Shown: positions 11,981-32,797, numbered from the stretch's first letter. The stretch is 64,000 bases of DNA from Ornithobacterium rhinotracheale DSM 15997 (GCF_000265465.1 NC_018016.1:1974001-2038000); one strand, 5' to 3'. Made by a program: numbers and translations. Notes: a model not told the origin generated them from the sequence alone.

Positions 11981-11990
11981 TACTGTGAAA

Positions 11991-13430
11991 ATGAAAAAAA
12001 TTATAATAGCAATATTGGCTTTATTTACAATTTATTCTTGCCAAGATTACTTAAATGTAAAGCCAGAAAATGTAATGACAGTTAGTTCTTACCAAGATGT
12101 CAAGTCTCTTTTAGGAGGACACCTAAAGTCTTTTCAAGATGGCGATACGAGACAAGCCTTGAGTAATGTCCCAATTTTCTTTAGCGACAATAAGGATTAT
12201 TTAATTACGCACTTTTATAGCGATGATTATGATCTTGAAAAATATTTGGATAATTACATGGGGAGAAACAATAGAGGGGATTTTCAAAAATCTCAAGATT
12301 GGAAACACCCAGATATTAATGAGCAAATATGGAAAACGGGATTTAAATCAATTGGATTCTACAATATGGTTTTGTTCGAGTTGGATAAAGTAAAGGCTTC
12401 TGAAGATGAAAGAAATATTATAAAAGGTGAAGTTAAGACATTAAGAGCTTGGAACTTCTTTAGATTACTCCAATTTTTTTCGCCTTACCACAATAATAGT
12501 CTTGGTCTACCATTGAATACAAACCCAGACAAAGTTGGAGATTACGATAAATCAAGAAAATCACAGGTGGAAAATTACGACTTTATTATAAATGAACTAG
12601 AAGAAGTTTTAAATTATAAAACAAAACCTAAACAGGGATATAATATATTTTATGATAAGAAAATTGTCCACGCTCTTTTAGCCCAAGTGTATTTGTATAA
12701 AGGAGACTCGGGGGCAAAGGCAGCAACAGACTATGAGAAAGCAATTGCCCATGCTCAAAAAGCGATGGAAGGGCGTCTTAGCTTAGAAGAAATTTCAAGA
12801 AATCCGACGGAAAATGAAAGCTATGGTATTAATAAAGAAAAGACATATTCTTTATTATCGTTTATGTACAACGATACAAATAGAATTTTTAATCTTGTAG
12901 GGATGCCAGCTTGGGGTATGTTTCAATATGCCTCAGATGAATTATTTAGCTTATTTGATGAAAACGATAAAAGAACTGATTTATATTTCAATAAGGATAA
13001 AGGTATTTTGAAGTTTGAGTCAGAGTTTCAATACTCGTATTGTAAGTGGGATTTCTTTACTGCGAGCGAAATGCAATTGATTATAGCTGAAAGTTATGCC
13101 CGAAAAGGTGATGAAGAGAATGCTAAAAGAGCATTAAAAGTCTTTACAGATTCAAGGTATAATAAATACCTTTCCAAAGAAAATTTATCAACATTGGATA
13201 AAATTTTGATTGAACGCAGAAAAGAATTTTGCTTTGATTACTGCATGAGATGGATTGATTTGACTCGATTGCAAAAAGGCTTTAAACATAAATCTGTAGG
13301 CAAGAAAAAAGACCAAAAAGAATTTTTTGAATTATCAAATGGGGATTTCAGATTTTGTATGCCAATTCCGAAATCAGGTGAGTTGCAAAATAATAAAATA
13401 GAACAAAACCCTGGCTGGGGTAACTTTTAA
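11991..13430 (+). CDS. SusD/RagB family nutrient-binding lipoprotein
   Basis: This 479-aa surface lipoprotein begins MKKIIIAILALFTIYSCQDY (lipobox IYSC). The ATG at 11991 is preferred over the GTG at 11985. The SusD N-terminal helical repeats are seen (YLNVKPENVMTVSSYQDVK, EVKTLRAWNFFRLLQFF). The C-terminal signature is IERRKEFCFDYCMRWIDLTR followed by FCMPIPKSGELQNN, and it ends in NPGWGNF. In RagA/RagB-type systems this protein forms the lid over the SusC channel and captures oligopeptides or glycans. It lies 10 bp after the SusC frame. If SusC is truly dead, this protein has no dedicated partner here. Confidence 0.93.
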   Translation: MKKIIIAILALFTIYSCQDYLNVKPENVMTVSSYQDVKSLLGGHLKSFQDGDTRQALSNVPIFFSDNKDYLITHFYSDDYDLEKYLDNYMGRNNRGDFQKSQDWKHPDINEQIWKTGFKSIGFYNMVLFELDKVKASEDERNIIKGEVKTLRAWNFFRLLQFFSPYHNNSLGLPLNTNPDKVGDYDKSRKSQVENYDFIINELEEVLNYKTKPKQGYNIFYDKKIVHALLAQVYLYKGDSGAKAATDYEKAIAHAQKAMEGRLSLEEISRNPTENESYGINKEKTYSLLSFMYNDTNRIFNLVGMPAWGMFQYASDELFSLFDENDKRTDLYFNKDKGILKFESEFQYSYCKWDFFTASEMQLIIAESYARKGDEENAKRALKVFTDSRYNKYLSKENLSTLDKILIERRKEFCFDYCMRWIDLTRLQKGFKHKSVGKKKDQKEFFELSNGDFRFCMPIPKSGELQNNKIEQNPGWGNF

Positions 13431-13442
13431 AATATAGTAAAA

Positions 13443-14645
13443 ATGAAATTTTTAAAATTTTTTGTACTGAGTATAATAGCATTGCTTATGCTCAATTCTT
13501 GTAACAAAGATGAAACTGAATATTCGATTGGTTTTATCGGATTCGATAAAATAGCAAAAATCGAGCTATCTCCTAATAGTCCTCAATTAATTGCAGATGG
13601 AGTGGCTGAGCTAAAATTTAAGGTAAAATGTTATTATCTGATAAAAGATACAGTACTTGTGCCTATGCTAGCAGATAGAGTTCCTCTAGACAAAATAGAA
13701 ATAAAATCATCTGACGGGCAAAAAATAAAGTTGTCTGAGGCTTATACAACAAAATCCAAAGCAGATTCAATAGCCTTTACCTGTACAGTGGGAGATAAAA
13801 CATCAAATGAGGTGAAAGTAGCATTGACAGAACCCGTTGTGAACAATGATGAAGAGATAGTTGTGCCAATTATTTTTCATGCATTATATACTGAGGAAAC
13901 AAAAAACAACACCAAAAATTTAAATAAAGAATTTCTTCAAGATATTGTGAATAAAACCAACAAAGTTTTTGCTAATGAAGTGAATAAATCCCCTAGTAGT
14001 TTCAATTCAGGAATTAAATTTAAGGTGCATAAATTAGAATTTGTAAAAGTAGATGCAGAAATAATGAGCAGTCAATTTGATTTGTATAACTACATTTCAG
14101 AGAATTTAATCGAGGAGCCTGAAAAATATTTAAATGTTTGGATACTAAATACTCAGATGTGGAAGTTAGGAGATGATGCATGTGTTCCTGCGTTCACATT
14201 CGGAGATCCATCAAAAATTAAAGGACTTGATTTGGAGGTTGTTAAAAGTATAGATGAAATTAAAAAAATAAAACCAGAATATGTCGGTTTTGCTCTAACA
14301 TATGGAGGCATTTATCAGATGAAAGAGGGGTATGGCGGTAAATCTTTCTCCTACAGCATAGGAAAGTATTACGGGCTTTTACCAACAGGACATTATAATG
14401 AGGATAATCCTCCGATGGAGAACAATGACTTGGATTATTGTCCCGATACCTATTCTTATGTTAAAAAAGAGATGACTTTGCAGAAAAAAACATTTCCTAT
14501 AAATGGAGATAAAAATAAAATATATTATTACGATTCGTTTAATATAATGGATGAAATATCATCCTCGAAAACAATAAGCAAAGACCAAATCTTTAGAATA
14601 AAACAGGTGATGAAAGACTGTCCATTTAGGCAAATGAAATTGTAA
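13443..14645 (+). CDS. Lipoprotein of pappalysin (M43) type with degenerate zinc site
   Basis: The 400-aa lipoprotein starts MKFLKFFVLSIIALLMLNSC. An Ig-like domain occupies about 30-130 (IELSPNSPQLIADGVAELKF). The rest follows the layout of the zinc metalloproteinase lipoproteins found beside RagA/RagB: VPIIFHALYTEE, the strand KYLNVWILN, a segment aligned with the active-site helix, and the Met-turn NIMD (367-370). The active-site helix reads YSIGKYYGLLP (304-314) where HExGHxxGxxH is expected. All three His and the Glu are replaced, while the Gly, Gly-Leu-Leu and Met-turn remain. It is therefore probably a non-catalytic binding protein. It is co-transcribed with SusC/SusD and ends at a strong terminator. 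Confidence 0.72.
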   Translation: MKFLKFFVLSIIALLMLNSCNKDETEYSIGFIGFDKIAKIELSPNSPQLIADGVAELKFKVKCYYLIKDTVLVPMLADRVPLDKIEIKSSDGQKIKLSEAYTTKSKADSIAFTCTVGDKTSNEVKVALTEPVVNNDEEIVVPIIFHALYTEETKNNTKNLNKEFLQDIVNKTNKVFANEVNKSPSSFNSGIKFKVHKLEFVKVDAEIMSSQFDLYNYISENLIEEPEKYLNVWILNTQMWKLGDDACVPAFTFGDPSKIKGLDLEVVKSIDEIKKIKPEYVGFALTYGGIYQMKEGYGGKSFSYSIGKYYGLLPTGHYNEDNPPMENNDLDYCPDTYSYVKKEMTLQKKTFPINGDKNKIYYYDSFNIMDEISSSKTISKDQIFRIKQVMKDCPFRQMKL

Positions 14646-14653
14646 ATAGAACT

Positions 14654-14686
14654 AAATTCCGTAAATTATTTTACGGAATTTTTTAT
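14654..14686 (+). terminator. Rho-independent terminator of the SusC/SusD/M43-like operon
   Basis: A perfect 12-bp stem AAATTCCGTAAA / TTTACGGAATTT (14654-14665 / 14670-14681) with loop TTAT is followed by a T run. It separates the operon from the sialidase gene. Confidence 0.85.
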
Positions 14687-14794
14687 TTAAATATGAAATT
14701 AAAACACGATTGATAATTATCATGATTTAAAAAACTAATTTTTCAATTTAAAATTTCGTATCTTAGTCCACCAAAATTTTAAACAAAATAACAC

Positions 14795-15865
14795 ATGAAA
14801 AAATTTATATTGCTCCTTGCTAGCGCGATGACCTTTGCACAAAATGCCAAACCAATGCCTACCATTTTATTTACCAATAAAGATAAAAATTTAAATGGAG
14901 GTTGCTACAGAATCCCTTCGCTCATCACAGCACAAGACGGAACTTTGATTGCTGTAGCCGATCAGCGTTTGAATGGTTGTGGAGATTTGAAATACAACGA
15001 CGACATCAACATCGTGGCGCGTCGTAGCACCGATGGCGGTAAAACTTGGAGTGATATAGAAAGCATTGTGGATTTCCCGAAAGGAGAATCAGCATCAGAT
15101 GCATCTATGGTTTTGAATAAAAAAACAGGAGATATTATCTTGTTTTACAATTATATGGATTTGAAAAATGAAAAAGACATTTTTAAACAACATTATGTAA
15201 TCAGCCACGACAATGGCAAAACTTGGAGCAAGTCCTACGATATTACAAGACAAATCGCTCCAGAAAATTCATACAAAGACTTTAAATTCATCACTTCGGG
15301 GCGTGCTACCCAAGCACCCGACGGAACGATTTACCAAACTTTGGTAGACCTTCAAAAGAAAGGAGTTTTTATATTTTATTCTAAAAACAATGGCGTTTCA
15401 TGGAATTTATTAACAGGTTCGGTACAGCCCGCAGATGAAACCAATATTGTTGCCCTGCCAAACGGAAACATTTTGCTAAATGCGCGTGTGGCAGGATTAG
15501 GAAGTCGAAAAATCTATGAATTTGCGCCAAATGGCAAATTGTTGAGAGACGAGGTAGTAAAAGCCTTGCCAGATCCTGCTTGTAACGGAGCCATTTTGGA
15601 CTATCAAGTAGGAAAACAAAATTTACTGTTTTTCTCAAATGCAAACGACAGCAAGAAACGTAAAAATATGACCATAAAATACAGCACAGACAATGGTAAT
15701 ACATGGAGCCAAGGAAAAGTGCTAAATCCAGGATTTTCAGCATATTCATCTTTAGCTCAGTTGGATAACAATGATTTAGGAATTTTATACGAGGTTAATG
15801 ACTACGGCGACATCGCTTTTAGCTATTTGCCGATAGATTGGGTTTTGTCTCAAAGTGTAAAATAA
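14795..15865 (+). CDS. nanH: Exo-alpha-sialidase, glycoside hydrolase family 33
   Basis: This 356-aa exported sialidase removes terminal sialic acid from host glycans. It has a short signal peptide (MKKFILLLASAMTFAQ) and the catalytic-arginine motif YRIP (R39). Four Asp boxes mark the six-bladed propeller: STDGGKTW, SHDNGKTW, SKNNGVSW and STDNGNTW. Length and motif order match compact bacterial GH33 enzymes without extra lectin domains. It has its own upstream region after a terminator, so it is probably transcribed separately from the SusC locus. Together with hexosaminidase and mannosidase genes in the window it indicates use of mucosal glycoproteins. Confidence 0.95.
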   Translation: MKKFILLLASAMTFAQNAKPMPTILFTNKDKNLNGGCYRIPSLITAQDGTLIAVADQRLNGCGDLKYNDDINIVARRSTDGGKTWSDIESIVDFPKGESASDASMVLNKKTGDIILFYNYMDLKNEKDIFKQHYVISHDNGKTWSKSYDITRQIAPENSYKDFKFITSGRATQAPDGTIYQTLVDLQKKGVFIFYSKNNGVSWNLLTGSVQPADETNIVALPNGNILLNARVAGLGSRKIYEFAPNGKLLRDEVVKALPDPACNGAILDYQVGKQNLLFFSNANDSKKRKNMTIKYSTDNGNTWSQGKVLNPGFSAYSSLAQLDNNDLGILYEVNDYGDIAFSYLPIDWVLSQSVK

Positions 15866-20658: not shown

Positions 20659-20678
20659 TTGTACGAAAAATAAGGAGA

Positions 20679-23057
20679 TTAATCTAGTCTCTTTACTTCA
20701 TCTTTATTACCAAGTTCTTTTTCTTTCACTCTAATTTTTTCGTTACCAAATTTATAACTAAAACCAAGAGTGAAACTTCTGTTATCATCATAAGTATTGT
20801 AAATCTGTTTAACGCCATTGGTATATGTTGTTACATTAGGAGAAGAGGTTTTAAATACATCATTAATCCTAGCGGTTAGTTGTAGCTTTTTATCCATAAA
20901 ATTCATTTTAAAGCCTAAATCTAGTTTCCAAAAAGGATCTATATTGAACATAAATTCATTTCCTCTTGTCTGTCCATAAAAAGATGCTTCTGCCTGAATA
21001 GTTCCTTCACGGTTTAACAGAAATACTTGGTTTGTGTATGCTTGAAATTTCCAGCCATTAAAAATTTTATCTGTTCCTAAATTTACATCTGTCATCGTTT
21101 CTTGATATACTCCAGAAATCATAGATGTAGTATTCCACCATTTAAATGGATTAAATAATATTGTTTGAGATGCGCCATAAGATTTTAAATTACCAACATT
21201 TTGAAATGTGTAGTATTGTTGTTTTTGATTAGTATCAACTTTGGGGATTTGACTGGCTATGTCTTCAATATAGTTAAAATACAATTCAGTAATAAATGCC
21301 TTTTTTAATATGTATTTAAATCTTATTTCATTCGAGAAACTAGGTTGCAAATTAGGGTTACCTTCAACATAAGAATTAGCATTAATATAGAATTTAAAAG
21401 GGTTTAATCTAGCAAAACTTGGTCTATTGATGCGTCTATTTAAAGATAAATTAAATATATTGTTTATATCCTTGGTATAAGATAAATATAGGGTTGGGAA
21501 TAGTTGTACATAATTCTTTTTATTCACTTGGTTTAAATTTTTAGAAAATCCTTCGGTTTGAGTGAATTCTGAACGAAGTCCTAATTTAGCTTGTAAATTT
21601 TCATTAAACTTTTTAGATATATCCAAATATAATGCTTGAATATCTTCTGTATATTTAAATGCATTGCTTTTATTTTGAGAAAATACAGGGATTCCATTAC
21701 TTAGATCATAAAAATTAACATCATTATTAGTTGTTGTTCTAGCAATCTTACCACCATAAGAATAGTTAGCAAATTTGGTCGGATGTTGAAAATCTACTTT
21801 AGCACTATAATTTTCAATATTTTGAATTCCAGTATTATTAGTCTTTTGAAATGTTGAGTGATACCCCGATTGTTCACTTTTAAATTCTCTATCTTTATTG
21901 TTTTTATAATTAAAATAATCTAAATCTATAAACATCTCACTGCCTAAGGTGTCTAATTTCTGAGAGTAATGCACATTCAAGATGTTATTTATGGTTTTTT
22001 GTTTCATTCCCCCTATGTTTTTTACTTTTCCTATTAAGGTATTATGTGTATTCATGATGAATGTGTTACTGTTCTTGATTGAATTAGGTTTTTTATAATC
22101 TCCTGAGTAAAAGATTCCTATGTTGGATTTGTTACTTATTTGATAATCAATCCCTAATTTTCCAGAAATATAATCACTAGCTATTTTGGTTTTTATTGTA
22201 TCTTTCCATACTCCTGCAGGATAATAAATATTCATTTTAGTTAGTTTTTGGGAGTGTCCATTTTTTCCATCTATAGAGGCAAATATTTTCCATTTTTGAT
22301 GACTGTAATTAAAGGTGTTGCCTAATTGTGTTGCTGGATATGTTGTCTGTGTGTAAGAGGTTCTAATTTGATTATTCCAAGAATTTTCTTTTGGTCTTTT
22401 TAAAATAATATTGATAAGGCCTCCATTTCCTTCAGCTTGGTACTTTGCTGGTGGTGTGCTAATTACTTCAATATTTTTAATATCATCAGAAGAAAAACTA
22501 CTTAAGTAGCTCACTAATTCCTCTCCAGATAGAGGAACAACCCTATCATTGATTAAGACCCTTGCACCTGATTTGCCTATGATATTTATGTTATTATTAT
22601 TTACTTGAACACTTGGCGTAACCTTAAGCAAATCTAAAGCATTCCCGTTGCTAGAAGATACAGAATTTTCAACATTAAATACCAGCCTATCAACTTTTTG
22701 GTCGATCATTTTTTTTCTCGCTACAACTACAAATTCTTTTAATGTTGTACCTCCCTCTTTTAAAATTATAGTTCCAAGTTCAAATGTCTTTGGCTTAATT
22801 GTTTGAGTTTCCAATCCTACAAAACTTATTTCAATACGATCTACAGGTTTTTTATCCTCTACTTCCAAATTAAAGTCACCATTATTGTCGGTAATAGTAC
22901 CTTCAATAATGTTATTATTCTCGTCTATAGCTAAGATGTCTGCATATGGAACTGGTATTTGTTGCTCATCAATTATCTTTCCCTTGTATGTTATAGTTTG
23001 GGAAAAAACTATAGTACTAAGCATTAGCAATAAAAAATTTAAAATTACATTTCTCAT
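20679..23057 (-). CDS. Outer-membrane beta-barrel receptor (PF14905-like TonB-dependent)
   Basis: The 792-aa protein has a signal peptide (MRNVILNFLLLMLSTIVFSQ), a carboxypeptidase-like domain (YKGKIIDEQQIPVPYADILA), a plug (LLKVTPSVQVNNNNINIIGK, EVISTPPAKYQAEGNGGLIN) and a barrel of the outer_membrane_beta-barrel family. It ends in a short charged tail (EKELGNKDEVKRLD) after the last strand (FTLGFSYKFG). No SusD partner follows, so it is not a Sus system. It is visibly AT-richer than ftsH. Two copies of the 18-bp palindrome precede it, one exactly 21 nt upstream of its -7 box, and the LuxR-type regulator is divergent. The ligand is unknown. Confidence 0.88.
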   Translation of the reverse strand: MRNVILNFLLLMLSTIVFSQTITYKGKIIDEQQIPVPYADILAIDENNNIIEGTITDNNGDFNLEVEDKKPVDRIEISFVGLETQTIKPKTFELGTIILKEGGTTLKEFVVVARKKMIDQKVDRLVFNVENSVSSSNGNALDLLKVTPSVQVNNNNINIIGKSGARVLINDRVVPLSGEELVSYLSSFSSDDIKNIEVISTPPAKYQAEGNGGLINIILKRPKENSWNNQIRTSYTQTTYPATQLGNTFNYSHQKWKIFASIDGKNGHSQKLTKMNIYYPAGVWKDTIKTKIASDYISGKLGIDYQISNKSNIGIFYSGDYKKPNSIKNSNTFIMNTHNTLIGKVKNIGGMKQKTINNILNVHYSQKLDTLGSEMFIDLDYFNYKNNKDREFKSEQSGYHSTFQKTNNTGIQNIENYSAKVDFQHPTKFANYSYGGKIARTTTNNDVNFYDLSNGIPVFSQNKSNAFKYTEDIQALYLDISKKFNENLQAKLGLRSEFTQTEGFSKNLNQVNKKNYVQLFPTLYLSYTKDINNIFNLSLNRRINRPSFARLNPFKFYINANSYVEGNPNLQPSFSNEIRFKYILKKAFITELYFNYIEDIASQIPKVDTNQKQQYYTFQNVGNLKSYGASQTILFNPFKWWNTTSMISGVYQETMTDVNLGTDKIFNGWKFQAYTNQVFLLNREGTIQAEASFYGQTRGNEFMFNIDPFWKLDLGFKMNFMDKKLQLTARINDVFKTSSPNVTTYTNGVKQIYNTYDDNRSFTLGFSYKFGNEKIRVKEKELGNKDEVKRLD

Positions 23058-23093
23058 AAATTCTGTTTTTAATTAATTACTTATTTTACATTA

Positions 23094-23101
23094 CGAAATT
23101 A
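23094..23101 (-). promoter_or_regulatory. -7 box (TAATTTCG) of the receptor gene
   Basis: On the minus strand TAATTTCG lies exactly 21 nt downstream of the palindrome at 23123-23140. The spacing is the same as that before the ThiF-like gene, which is the main reason for calling this imperfect TAnnTTTG match. Confidence 0.6.
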
Positions 23102-23122
23102 GGTGATATTGTTTGAATAATA

Positions 23123-23140
23123 ATTACACAAAAGTGTAGT
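23123..23140. promoter_or_regulatory. Operator copy 1 (ATTACAC-N4-GTGTAGT)
   Basis: An 18-bp inverted repeat with 7-bp arms and a 4-bp spacer, one mismatch from the perfect ACTACAC-N4-GTGTAGT. It lies 66 nt upstream of the receptor ATG. It is probably a dimer site for the adjacent LuxR-type regulator. Confidence 0.72.
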
Positions 23141-23161
23141 AATTTTCTGATCTATAGTAAA

Positions 23162-23179
23162 CTACAAAAAAGTGTAGTT
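23162..23179. promoter_or_regulatory. Operator copy 2 (ACTACAA-N4-GTGTAGT)
   Basis: This is the second 18-bp inverted repeat of the same 7-4-7 design, one mismatch from perfect. Its centre is 39 bp from copy 1, which puts both on roughly the same helix face. It lies between the receptor and luxR genes. Confidence 0.72.
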
Positions 23180-23253
23180 TCTTTTATAAATAGTTGTAGA
23201 AATAAAGCTGTTGGAAAATAAACGAAAGTTTCTTTGTTTAACATTTTTTTCTC

Positions 23254-23261
23254 TATATTTG
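23254..23261 (+). promoter_or_regulatory. -7 box (TATATTTG) of the LuxR-type gene
   Basis: TATATTTG lies 28 nt upstream of the regulator ATG; TTTG at 23233-23236 could be the -33 element with a 17-nt spacer. Confidence 0.6.
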
Positions 23262-23289
23262 AAAATAAAAATTAACTATTTGTTTAAAT

Positions 23290-24045
23290 ATGAACAACAA
23301 TCCATTTTTTTTTGATAAAAACACTATTAATAAGCTTTCTGAGAAAGAATTAAAACAGACATATAATTATTTAGCTACGATAGAAGCCTTTTCTAGAGTT
23401 ACTTATAGTAGCGTTTATGTTATAGATTATCAGAAAAAAGGGTTTGACTTTGTTTCCCATAATCCCTTATTTTTATGTGGTCATAGTCCTGAAGAGGTTC
23501 AAGAAATGGGATATGCTTTTTACTTCAAATATGTTCCTGAAGAAGATTTGGAACTTTTATTGAAAATAAATACAACAGGATTTGAATTTTTTCATAAAAT
23601 ACCTGTAGACGAAAGACTTTTATACACTCTTTCTTACGATTTTCATCTTAGAAATAATGAGGGGAAAACGGTGTTGGTTAATCAAAAAATTACGCCGATA
23701 TATTTAACAGATGAAGGGAAAATATGGAAAGCAATATGTGTTGTTTCAATCTCAGAAAAGAAAAACTCTGGAAATATTACACTTTATAAAAAAGGGAGAA
23801 ATATAAAATTAGTTTATAATATAGAGGGGGATTACTGGAAAGAGGAGGAGAGATTAAAACTTTCTGAAAGAGAGAAAGAGATATTGATTTATTCAGCAAG
23901 AGGTTTTTCTATCGCTCAGATAGCTGAAGCAATTTTTGTATCGGCAGATACAGTAAAGTTTCATAGAAAAAAAATGTTTGAAAAATTAGGTGTTTCAAAT
24001 ATTTCTGAAGCTATTTTTTTTGCGACTAATAATCAATTGATATAA
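23290..24045 (+). CDS. LuxR-family transcriptional regulator with PAS-like N-terminus
   Basis: The 251-aa protein has an N-terminal sensory part with a PAS-like pattern (SSVYVIDYQKKGFDFVSHNP, YFKYVPEEDLELL). The C-terminal LuxR/FixJ helix-turn-helix runs from about 195 to 251: LSEREKEILIYSARGFSIAQ, then IFVSADTVKFHRKKMFEKLG. There is no receiver domain with a phospho-acceptor Asp, so it may bind a ligand directly. It is divergent from the receptor and convergent with the ThiF-like gene. The three nearby palindromes sit upstream of those two genes, making this protein their likely activator. The signal is unknown. Confidence 0.87.
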   Translation: MNNNPFFFDKNTINKLSEKELKQTYNYLATIEAFSRVTYSSVYVIDYQKKGFDFVSHNPLFLCGHSPEEVQEMGYAFYFKYVPEEDLELLLKINTTGFEFFHKIPVDERLLYTLSYDFHLRNNEGKTVLVNQKITPIYLTDEGKIWKAICVVSISEKKNSGNITLYKKGRNIKLVYNIEGDYWKEEERLKLSEREKEILIYSARGFSIAQIAEAIFVSADTVKFHRKKMFEKLGVSNISEAIFFATNNQLI

Positions 24046-24048
24046 TAG

Positions 24049-24804
24049 CTACTCATTGGCGATAGTAGATAAATAAAATTCTGGAAATGTTTTAACTCTT
24101 TTCTTTGTTGCTATTCTAAAGATAAGATCTGTACACATTGAAGCAGCAAGCCAAGAGGCGACAGAAAGTTGTGGAGGAGGAGATGAGATATTTTCATTTT
24201 TATATTTTTCGATTATCTTTTCAATCCAAACCTGAGGTGAGTTCCAAAATCTCATATAGCTAGTGGAGTATTTTATAACTTTCAACTCATTTAGCAATTC
24301 ATCATCTTTATTGATTATATCCAATAATAAACCTTTTGGTGATATAATTGTAACTAATCCACCCCATCCTAGATTAAAAGGATGCAAAATTGGAATTTCT
24401 TTCTCTTGACATATTTTGTCAAAAAGTTGAGGCATTTTAGAATTGAAATCTATGGCATTAATAGCTATTTTATTATTATCTATAATAGATTCTATATTAT
24501 CAATATCTATAAATAGATTGTAAGATTTTATTTTAGCATCAGGATTAATGCCTAGTAGTCTCCTTTTTAAAGCTTCAGCTTTATTGTTTCCAATATCATC
24601 CATTAGATAGTTTTGGTGATTTAAATTGGAAAGTTCAACAGAATTGCCATCTACAATGTTTATATGCTCAAATCCAAGTCTTAGAGCGCACTCAGCTATC
24701 ACACTTCCAATGCCACTACCAGCTATAAGTATAGGGGTGTCTTTTATAAGTGTTTGCTCTTCAGGGCTTATGTACATTCCATTCCTATTATATCTTGAGT
24801 CCAT
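24049..24804 (-). CDS. ThiF/MoeB/HesA-family E1-like adenylyltransferase
   Basis: The 251-aa protein has the E1 Rossmann core: ILIAGSGIGSVIAECALRLG for ATP binding, then NIVDGNSVELSNLNHQNYLM and DIGNNKAEALKRRLLGINPD. I see no CxxC zinc pairs and no obvious catalytic Cys, unlike classical ThiF/MoeB. A C-terminal helix (SVASWLAASMCTDLIFRIAT) matches the family. It may activate a C-terminal carboxylate of a small protein or a free acid, but no ubiquitin-like or peptide partner is seen next to it. A perfect palindrome is exactly 21 nt upstream of its -7 box, tying it to the receptor. The stop is 3 bp from the convergent luxR stop. Confidence 0.82.
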   Translation of the reverse strand: MDSRYNRNGMYISPEEQTLIKDTPILIAGSGIGSVIAECALRLGFEHINIVDGNSVELSNLNHQNYLMDDIGNNKAEALKRRLLGINPDAKIKSYNLFIDIDNIESIIDNNKIAINAIDFNSKMPQLFDKICQEKEIPILHPFNLGWGGLVTIISPKGLLLDIINKDDELLNELKVIKYSTSYMRFWNSPQVWIEKIIEKYKNENISSPPPQLSVASWLAASMCTDLIFRIATKKRVKTFPEFYLSTIANE

Positions 24805-24823
24805 AATTTATTATTTCATAGGG

Positions 24824-24831
24824 TAAAGGTA
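24824..24831 (-). promoter_or_regulatory. -7 box (TACCTTTA) of the ThiF-like gene
   Basis: On the minus strand TACCTTTA lies exactly 21 nt below the palindrome at 24853-24870 and about 20 nt above the ATG. Confidence 0.6.
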
Positions 24832-24852
24832 TTATTAAATACAATATTTAAT

Positions 24853-24870
24853 ACTACACCAAAGTGTAGT
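24853..24870. promoter_or_regulatory. Operator copy 3 (perfect ACTACAC-CAAA-GTGTAGT)
   Basis: This is a perfect 7-4-7 inverted repeat, 49 nt upstream of the ThiF-like ATG. It is the same design as the two sites upstream of the receptor gene 1.7 kb away. Confidence 0.78.
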
Positions 24871-31587: not shown

Positions 31588-31712
31588 GCTCAAAAGTTGT
31601 TAGCAGCAGGTATTTTAATTTTTCGAAGAACCTCTAAAAGAATGTTTAAATCTGAATATTAGATAGATGGAAAATATAAATTGGAAAAATTTGATAATTT
31701 ATGATTGCAAAA
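31588..31712 (+). other. Short degenerate stretch after the YezG gene
   Basis: Translation gives a fragment (QKLLAAGILIFRRTSKRMFK) that stops after about 30 codons. It may be the worn end of another toxin or immunity gene; I do not recognise it. Confidence 0.3.
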
Positions 31713-31995
31713 AAACAAAAGTGAAATCCAATCGATTTCGTTGGTCAATCAATTGCCCGAGTTGAATAAAACTGAAGGGTTTATTACAAGAGATATAGTT
31801 AAAGGTTACTTTAAAACTGAAAATGGCGAGCGCGTGATGGTTCTCATCAATCAAGAAGATAATTTGCCCTATATTTTAATCACGACTAAAAACGGGCAGA
31901 AAATATATTTTTCGTCTGACGATGAAAGCGATTTGGAATTGTATAAAATTTTGAAAGGAGACTTGATGCCAAATGTAGATATTTTAGGAAAATAG
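31713..31995 (+). pseudogene. Truncated duplicate of the C-terminal PH-like domain of the downstream membrane protein
   Basis: About 250 bp match 32536-32780 nearly base for base: both encode SEIQSISLVNQLPELNKTEG and later EDNLPYILITTKNGQKIYFS. This copy lacks the membrane part and has only a TTG as a possible start. It differs mainly near the end (SDDESDLELYKILKGDLMPN). It is a product of tandem duplication with the flanking 78-bp repeats and is probably not functional. Confidence 0.78.
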
Positions 31996-32071: not shown

Positions 32072-32797
32072 ATGTTCATTGCAATAGTATATTCCATTTT
32101 ATTTGTAATTTTTGGACTGTATATTAATCCAAAACGAGTGCAGTTTCTATTCTTGTGCCGTGGGTTCAACGATTACAGTGATGATAAATTTAATGTATCA
32201 GGTTTTTCTTCTTATTTGAAGAAGTTAAATATTTTCCTTGGCATATCCATGCCACTGCTATTTTTTGCGATTTATCATTGGTACGAAGTTGCTTATGCAT
32301 ATTTAAGCCTACTTATTTATCCAATCTTTGTGTATATCTTTTTAATGATAAAACAACCCAGCTTTTATTATGTGAAGCCCAAAAAGTATGAAAAAGAAGA
32401 TTGGATTTATGCCCCTTATATTGGAATATTTAGTATTGTAGGTGTATTTATACTATTGTATGTGGGGACGAGAAATTCCGAATTGGAAGTGGAAAACGAC
32501 AAAATCAAAATCACGGGAATTTACGAAACAGAAATAAACAAAAGTGAAATCCAATCGATTTCGTTAGTCAATCAATTGCCTGAGTTGAATAAAACTGAAG
32601 GGTTTATTACAAGAGATATAGTTAAAGGTTACTTTAAAACTGAAAAAGGCGAAAGCGTGGTGGTTCTCATCAATCAAGAAGATAATTTGCCTTATATTTT
32701 AATCACGACTAAAAACGGGCAGAAAATATATTTTTCGTCCGGCAATAAAAGCAATTTGGAAGTGTATAAAGAATTGAAAGAAAAGCTAAATCTTTAA
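32072..32797 (+). CDS. Membrane protein with DUF3784-like N-terminus and PH-like C-terminal domain
   Basis: The 241-aa protein has four hydrophobic segments (residues 1-17, 46-64, 67-90 and about 115-135) in a DUF3784-like arrangement (FIAIVYSILFVIFGLYI). A soluble C-terminal domain of about 100 residues resembles bacterial PH domains (LEVENDKIKITGIYETEI). It may be an immunity protein, since many polymorphic-toxin immunity proteins in Bacteroidetes are small membrane proteins, but nothing proves it. Its C-terminal domain is duplicated upstream. Confidence 0.62.
   Translation: MFIAIVYSILFVIFGLYINPKRVQFLFLCRGFNDYSDDKFNVSGFSSYLKKLNIFLGISMPLLFFAIYHWYEVAYAYLSLLIYPIFVYIFLMIKQPSFYYVKPKKYEKEDWIYAPYIGIFSIVGVFILLYVGTRNSELEVENDKIKITGIYETEINKSEIQSISLVNQLPELNKTEGFITRDIVKGYFKTEKGESVVVLINQEDNLPYILITTKNGQKIYFSSGNKSNLEVYKELKEKLNL

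Follow-up and report, generated by a model that had tools for sequence, protein, structure and literature searches.

Which known system, if any, unites a LuxR-type regulator, an outer-membrane receptor and a ThiF-like enzyme that share a palindrome in Ornithobacterium rhinotracheale DSM 15997? The genes lie in a 64,000-nucleotide stretch of the chromosome (NC_018016.1:1974001-2038000; hereafter the window, whose numbering is used throughout), and an earlier note on this DNA had proposed an uptake-and-modification system with no match to a named one. The ThiF-like protein (251 aa; 24049-24804, minus strand; Pfam ThiF) is a member of the AclA family. It is 59-60% identical over 248 residues to PDB 9EGB, titled 'AclA from Tenacibaculum discolor in complex with substrate', and its model (pLDDT 90) matches 9EGB with Z 38.8 and an rmsd of 1.2 over 249 residues, the next structural match being E. 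coli ThiF (Z 27). A profile of the AclA family matches 9EGB, 9EGC and 9EGD over the full length (E 5e-127), and NCBIfam equivalog tests for ThiF/MoeB stayed below all cut-offs (best 97 bits vs a cut-off of 159). AclA shares its fold and adenylation motifs with the ThiF/MoeB/TcdA adenylating enzymes, but is 16-23% identical to most of them, has no zinc cysteines and is accompanied by an acyltransferase.

AclA is the ATP-dependent cyclase of signal synthesis in N-acyl-cyclolysine (ACL) quorum sensing; the locus thus has a named counterpart after all, and the earlier supposition that its ThiF-like enzyme modifies an imported molecule finds no support. ACLs are reportedly made by acylation of lysine and ATP-dependent cyclization by AclA, and are said to be sensed by AclR and to control co-localized operons. 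We regard the system as already known because all of our findings fit this AclA/AclR scheme. As summarized in a 2026 review (PMC13419125), N-acyl-cyclolysines were discovered as a Bacteroidota signal family by Linares-Otoya et al. (Nature 2025, 646:423).

The LuxR-type, or AclR-type, regulator (251 aa; 23290-24045, plus strand) adjoins aclA and has a C-terminal GerE DNA-binding domain (Pfam GerE 1.4e-16); Pfam found no ligand-binding domain in its N-terminus. It is 54-64% identical to the regulators of complete ACL circuits and nests with them in the regulator tree (Tenacibaculum, Flavobacteriaceae and others; support 99/97) on a long branch (0.54). It departs from otherwise invariant columns only once and retains a conserved DNA-binding helix.

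Palindromes of the form ACTACAC-N4-GTGTAGT occur three times in the window, with 1, 1 and 0 mismatches, compared with 0.04 in dinucleotide shuffles, which is far beyond chance. All three are assigned to minus-strand promoters: a proximal operator at the receptor promoter (23123-23140, one mismatch), a distal operator 38 bp from it (23161-23178, one mismatch) and a perfect palindrome at the aclA promoter (24853-24870). A scan of the whole 64-kb window with up to two mismatches returned no copy beyond these, as the earlier note had said; its positions for the outer sites (23123 and 24853) also hold, while the middle site starts at 23161 rather than 23162, and the receptor sites lie 38 bp apart, start to start, rather than 39. 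Genome-wide (2,399,175 bases, one contig), the same three sites were joined by one two-mismatch match (C1:361708) and no crowd of random copies; the window palindromes are the only convincing ones in the 2.4-Mb genome. The distance from palindrome end to −7 box is, as previously noticed, exactly 21 nt on the minus strand at both the receptor gene (TAATTTCG, 23094-23101; G000:C1:1997094-1997140) and the ThiF-like gene (TACCTTTA, 24824-24831; G000:C1:1998824-1998870).

The same geometry recurs in relatives, which were sought in species genomes and in 296 family genomes. Across 62 related loci, an exact TAnnTTTG box lies at gap 21 for 55 of 143 distinct sites and at gap 22 for four; the mean for gaps other than 21 is 0.87, a figure that includes 32 boxes at gap 59, which belong to the distal or upstream copies of 38-bp pairs, and the remaining gaps have 0-3 each. 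Operator pairs in these loci are spaced by 38 bp in 34 cases and by 39, 28 or 23 bp in three, three and two. The composite palindrome-N21-TAnnTTTG, searched with up to two mismatches, is present in 96 of the 296 family genomes, and 94 of these encode the regulator (p 1e-44), so that operator and regulator do co-occur in other Bacteroidota. The 21-nt gap is found at the ThiF, acyltransferase and output promoters of relatives. We consider the operator to be real because other Flavobacteriales repeat the 21-nt and 38-bp geometry at dozens of promoters that adjoin orthologues of the regulator. With the box centered near −7, the palindrome is centered near −42.5, where LuxR-type activators have their lux box. 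The earlier prediction of a LuxR-type activator and a 7-4-7 operator dedicated to it in the activator position is supported, and the suggestion of one coherent regulon is supported as well.

Complete loci in relatives contain AclA, the regulator, a LuxI/FeeM-like acyltransferase of about 210 aa and interchangeable peptide-natural-product operons, all under the shared operator, with the ThiF-like, regulator and acyltransferase genes placed together or at opposite ends of one cluster. The acyltransferase matches Pfam FeeM (best 3e-8), with one of four relatives passing the Pfam cut-off and two more falling below it. Its AlphaFold model (pLDDT 77) best matches FeeM (2g0b) and LasI (1ro5), both at Z 14.1, followed by TofI, RpaI and BjaI (about 13) and ordinary GNATs (about 12 or less). 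It therefore has the fold of the FeeM N-acyl amino acid synthases, and is tied in relatives to AclA and the regulator. The family genomes include 43 with the acyltransferase and 45 with AclA (one a fragment); the two co-occur in 42 of the 43 and 42 of the 45 (p 3e-46), and the regulator is present in every acyltransferase genome. G159 is the one acyltransferase genome without the ThiF-like gene, and its locus lies near a contig end. AclA occurs without the acyltransferase only in the window genome, G076 and G301 (the fragment).

Given that the ThiF-like protein is AclA, an enzyme with an acyltransferase partner, we infer that the ligand is likely to be a cell-to-cell signal and the receptor a controlled output gene. 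In complete circuits, the acyltransferase would acylate L-lysine, AclA would adenylate and cyclize the acylated lysine to an N-acyl-cyclolysine, and the LuxR-type regulator would bind this signal and activate the promoters of aclA, the acyltransferase gene and the adjacent natural-product operon from the palindrome near −42.5. This scheme resembles LuxI/LuxR quorum sensing by AHLs in its GNAT-fold synthase (in the ACL relatives), LuxR-type regulator, inverted repeat near −42.5, autoinduction layout and frequent regulator solos, but differs in its separate AclA cyclase, lysine-derived lactam signal, Bacteroidota −7 promoters and an operator distinct in sequence from the lux box. In several loci (L045:10246-10263, L109, L110 and L038:10320-10337) the output promoter's upstream operator falls inside the acyltransferase gene, at its 3′ end, and supplies the codons of a conserved C-terminal L(H/P)xSVV; conservation of this tail in the protein would therefore reflect the DNA site. 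A divergent acyltransferase (29%) adjoins a divergent AclA (40%) at L181:8950-10426 (G403), with a response-regulator-like ORF alongside and neither a close operator nor a LuxR-type neighbor; the pair may represent a second lactam-synthesis subtype.

The receptor (792 aa; 20679-23057, minus strand), a predicted ACL-controlled output, is an outer-membrane β-barrel protein (Pfam OMP_b-brl_3, 3.7e-95) and is 33-37% identical, over its full length in most cases, to the receptor encoded behind the acyltransferase in ten ACL loci; ACL-controlled lanthipeptide-type operons begin with a homologue of it. In the cassette it is followed by no peptide genes, and a search for lanthipeptide leaders had no match in the window genome, nor any in control genomes. 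The operons behind the acyltransferase differ among loci: a receptor with lanthipeptide-type precursors (L045, L110, L111, L177), radical SAM/SPASM maturases with Cys-rich or GG-leader peptides (L038, L113, L125), NHLP-type export (L121, L128), NHLP-type leader peptides (L039, the same locus as L173), an SdpB-like cluster (L035) or a SagB-type dehydrogenase (L037); the radical-SAM gene of L125 and the precursor genes of L111 and L177 were named by eye from sequence. These peptide genes had suggested a RiPP-modifying ThiF enzyme of the microcin C or pantocin type, which was rejected: the ThiF-like protein follows the acyltransferase (42 of 43 genomes) and not one peptide class. A 2025 review of such RiPP-modifying enzymes mentions no case from Bacteroidota.

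The three genes form an inserted cassette of about 4.2 kb (20677-24860) between ftsH and cydB, delimited by BLAST against the congener loci L158 and L159. In the congener G002, about 169 bp separate ftsH and cydB in place of these positions, and neither the regulator nor its operator sites nor the cassette was found in any of three congeners. The AT-rich character that had been pointed out is equally clear (28.7% GC, compared with 37.0% for the window), and horizontal acquisition of the cassette, inserted after ftsH as had been claimed, is supported. A transposase-like ORF occupies the same gap in the congener G001 (L158:3922-4818), and insertions therefore seem to have hit this gap repeatedly.

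The cassette shares with the ACL circuit of Bacteroidota an AclA orthologue, a LuxR-type regulator, the operator at its aclA and output promoters and a co-localized output gene; it differs in having no acyltransferase, a substituted AclA (R9G/D54N/R63H) and no peptide-natural-product genes after the receptor. No member of the acyltransferase family was detected in the window genome at E≤10 with a single query or at E≤1e-8 with a profile that matched the 43 relatives. A search for an acyltransferase relic in the cassette yielded nothing convincing, just scattered short matches with E above 0.2. The AclA substitutions lie in the active-site region: D54 and R63 are invariant in 32 AclA relatives, which have neither the N nor the H of the window protein, and R9, here G, is nearly invariant. 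R63 aligns with Arg73 of MoeB, an ATP-contacting residue. D54N and R63H, together with R9G, are predicted from these alignments to cripple ATP use. Because the acyltransferase is absent, AclA is substituted and the regulator is nearly unchanged, signal synthesis has probably been lost and reception probably kept. We therefore favor a derivative of ACL quorum sensing without signal synthesis, either receiving only or decaying, and give this a probability of roughly 0.8. The acyltransferase would be gone and AclA impaired, with the regulator, operators and receptor gene left.

Two fates of such a derivative deserve to be weighed, and they overlap. With no enzyme to start signal synthesis, the cassette may only listen to its neighbors. 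A functional eavesdropper of this kind, in which ACLs from neighbors would switch on a receptor akin to those of ACL-controlled peptide operons while no ACL is made, is a tentative proposal. In that case the receptor might, for instance, import a peptide released simultaneously by the producers, or confer resistance to it. Decay of a remnant that is not under selection, in which the loss is so recent that regulator and operators have yet to disappear, seems to us a similarly tentative possibility. The lost acyltransferase, the substituted AclA and the missing peptide operon agree with decay, as do the long regulator branch and the transposase-like ORF of G001 at the same spot, but the three genes all have open frames, each operator is intact (0-1 mismatch) and at invariant columns the regulator differs only once. 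Loci that have operators and the regulator alone are, moreover, common: the regulator is present in 129 of the 296 family genomes, and in 85 of them AclA is absent. On the regulator tree, from which six long solo rows were left out, the presence of the acyltransferase changes at least eight times, and receivers without synthesis may be the ACL counterpart of LuxR solos. Our preference is for a working receiver over a remnant.

It is improbable, in our judgment, that the circuit is functionally complete, with another acyltransferase elsewhere supplying N-acyl-lysine and the substituted AclA still cyclizing it. The aclA frame is open, its operator and −7 box are intact, and an acyltransferase of an unrelated kind, encoded elsewhere, could substitute for the missing one; distance between AclA and its partner is by itself no argument, since AclA lies far from the acyltransferase in L128, L182 and L183. 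The searches at both thresholds nevertheless left the genome without a member of the acyltransferase family, and two of the altered AclA residues, D54 and R63, are otherwise invariant. Far less likely still is the original reading of a new uptake-and-modification system, in which a ligand is imported and altered by the ThiF enzyme: one operator does serve both that enzyme and a TonB-type outer-membrane receptor, but the ThiF family is tied to a LuxI/FeeM-like acyltransferase and has a solved relative in AclA, receptors vary or are absent among circuits, and the idea was dropped on the match to AclA.

A precise and testable ACL operator rule emerges from the locus: 21 nt separate a 7-4-7 palindrome from the −7 box that follows it, and another palindrome often lies 38 bp farther upstream. 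By this rule, ACL-controlled operons can be found across Flavobacteriales from sequence alone, and many of those found are lanthipeptide-type, radical-SAM or NHLP-type peptide clusters. Perfect or near-perfect composites of operator and −7 box distant from the regulator gene, in L149 (G217:C6), L150 (G130:C25), L151 (G286:C2), L153 (G059:C2) and at L147:17646, probably mark unlinked members of the regulon; the L150 operon encodes repeated 97-aa proteins. At L145:8710-13605 and L152:8093-12994, distant regulator solos that have a gap-21 operator precede proteins of 1631-1633 aa with a signal-peptide-like start. L185 (G301:C1:107929-108339) holds a broken AclA fragment with an operator and −7 box in a genome that has no regulator, and is a relic of a lost circuit. 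Flavobacterium loci L039-L044 had appeared to carry the ThiF-like gene alone and without sites; this was discarded, as the wider region of one of them (L173) contains the acyltransferase, regulator and sites 9 kb away.

Elsewhere in the window, SusD-like, metalloprotease-like and sialidase-like ORFs, recognized by eye, follow one another at 11985-15865 and are possibly a glycan-use locus. Two neighboring ORFs (31705-31995 and 32072-32797) have a nearly identical stretch in common (KSEIQSISLVNQLPELNKTEGFITRDIVKGYFKTE...), a partial tandem duplication.
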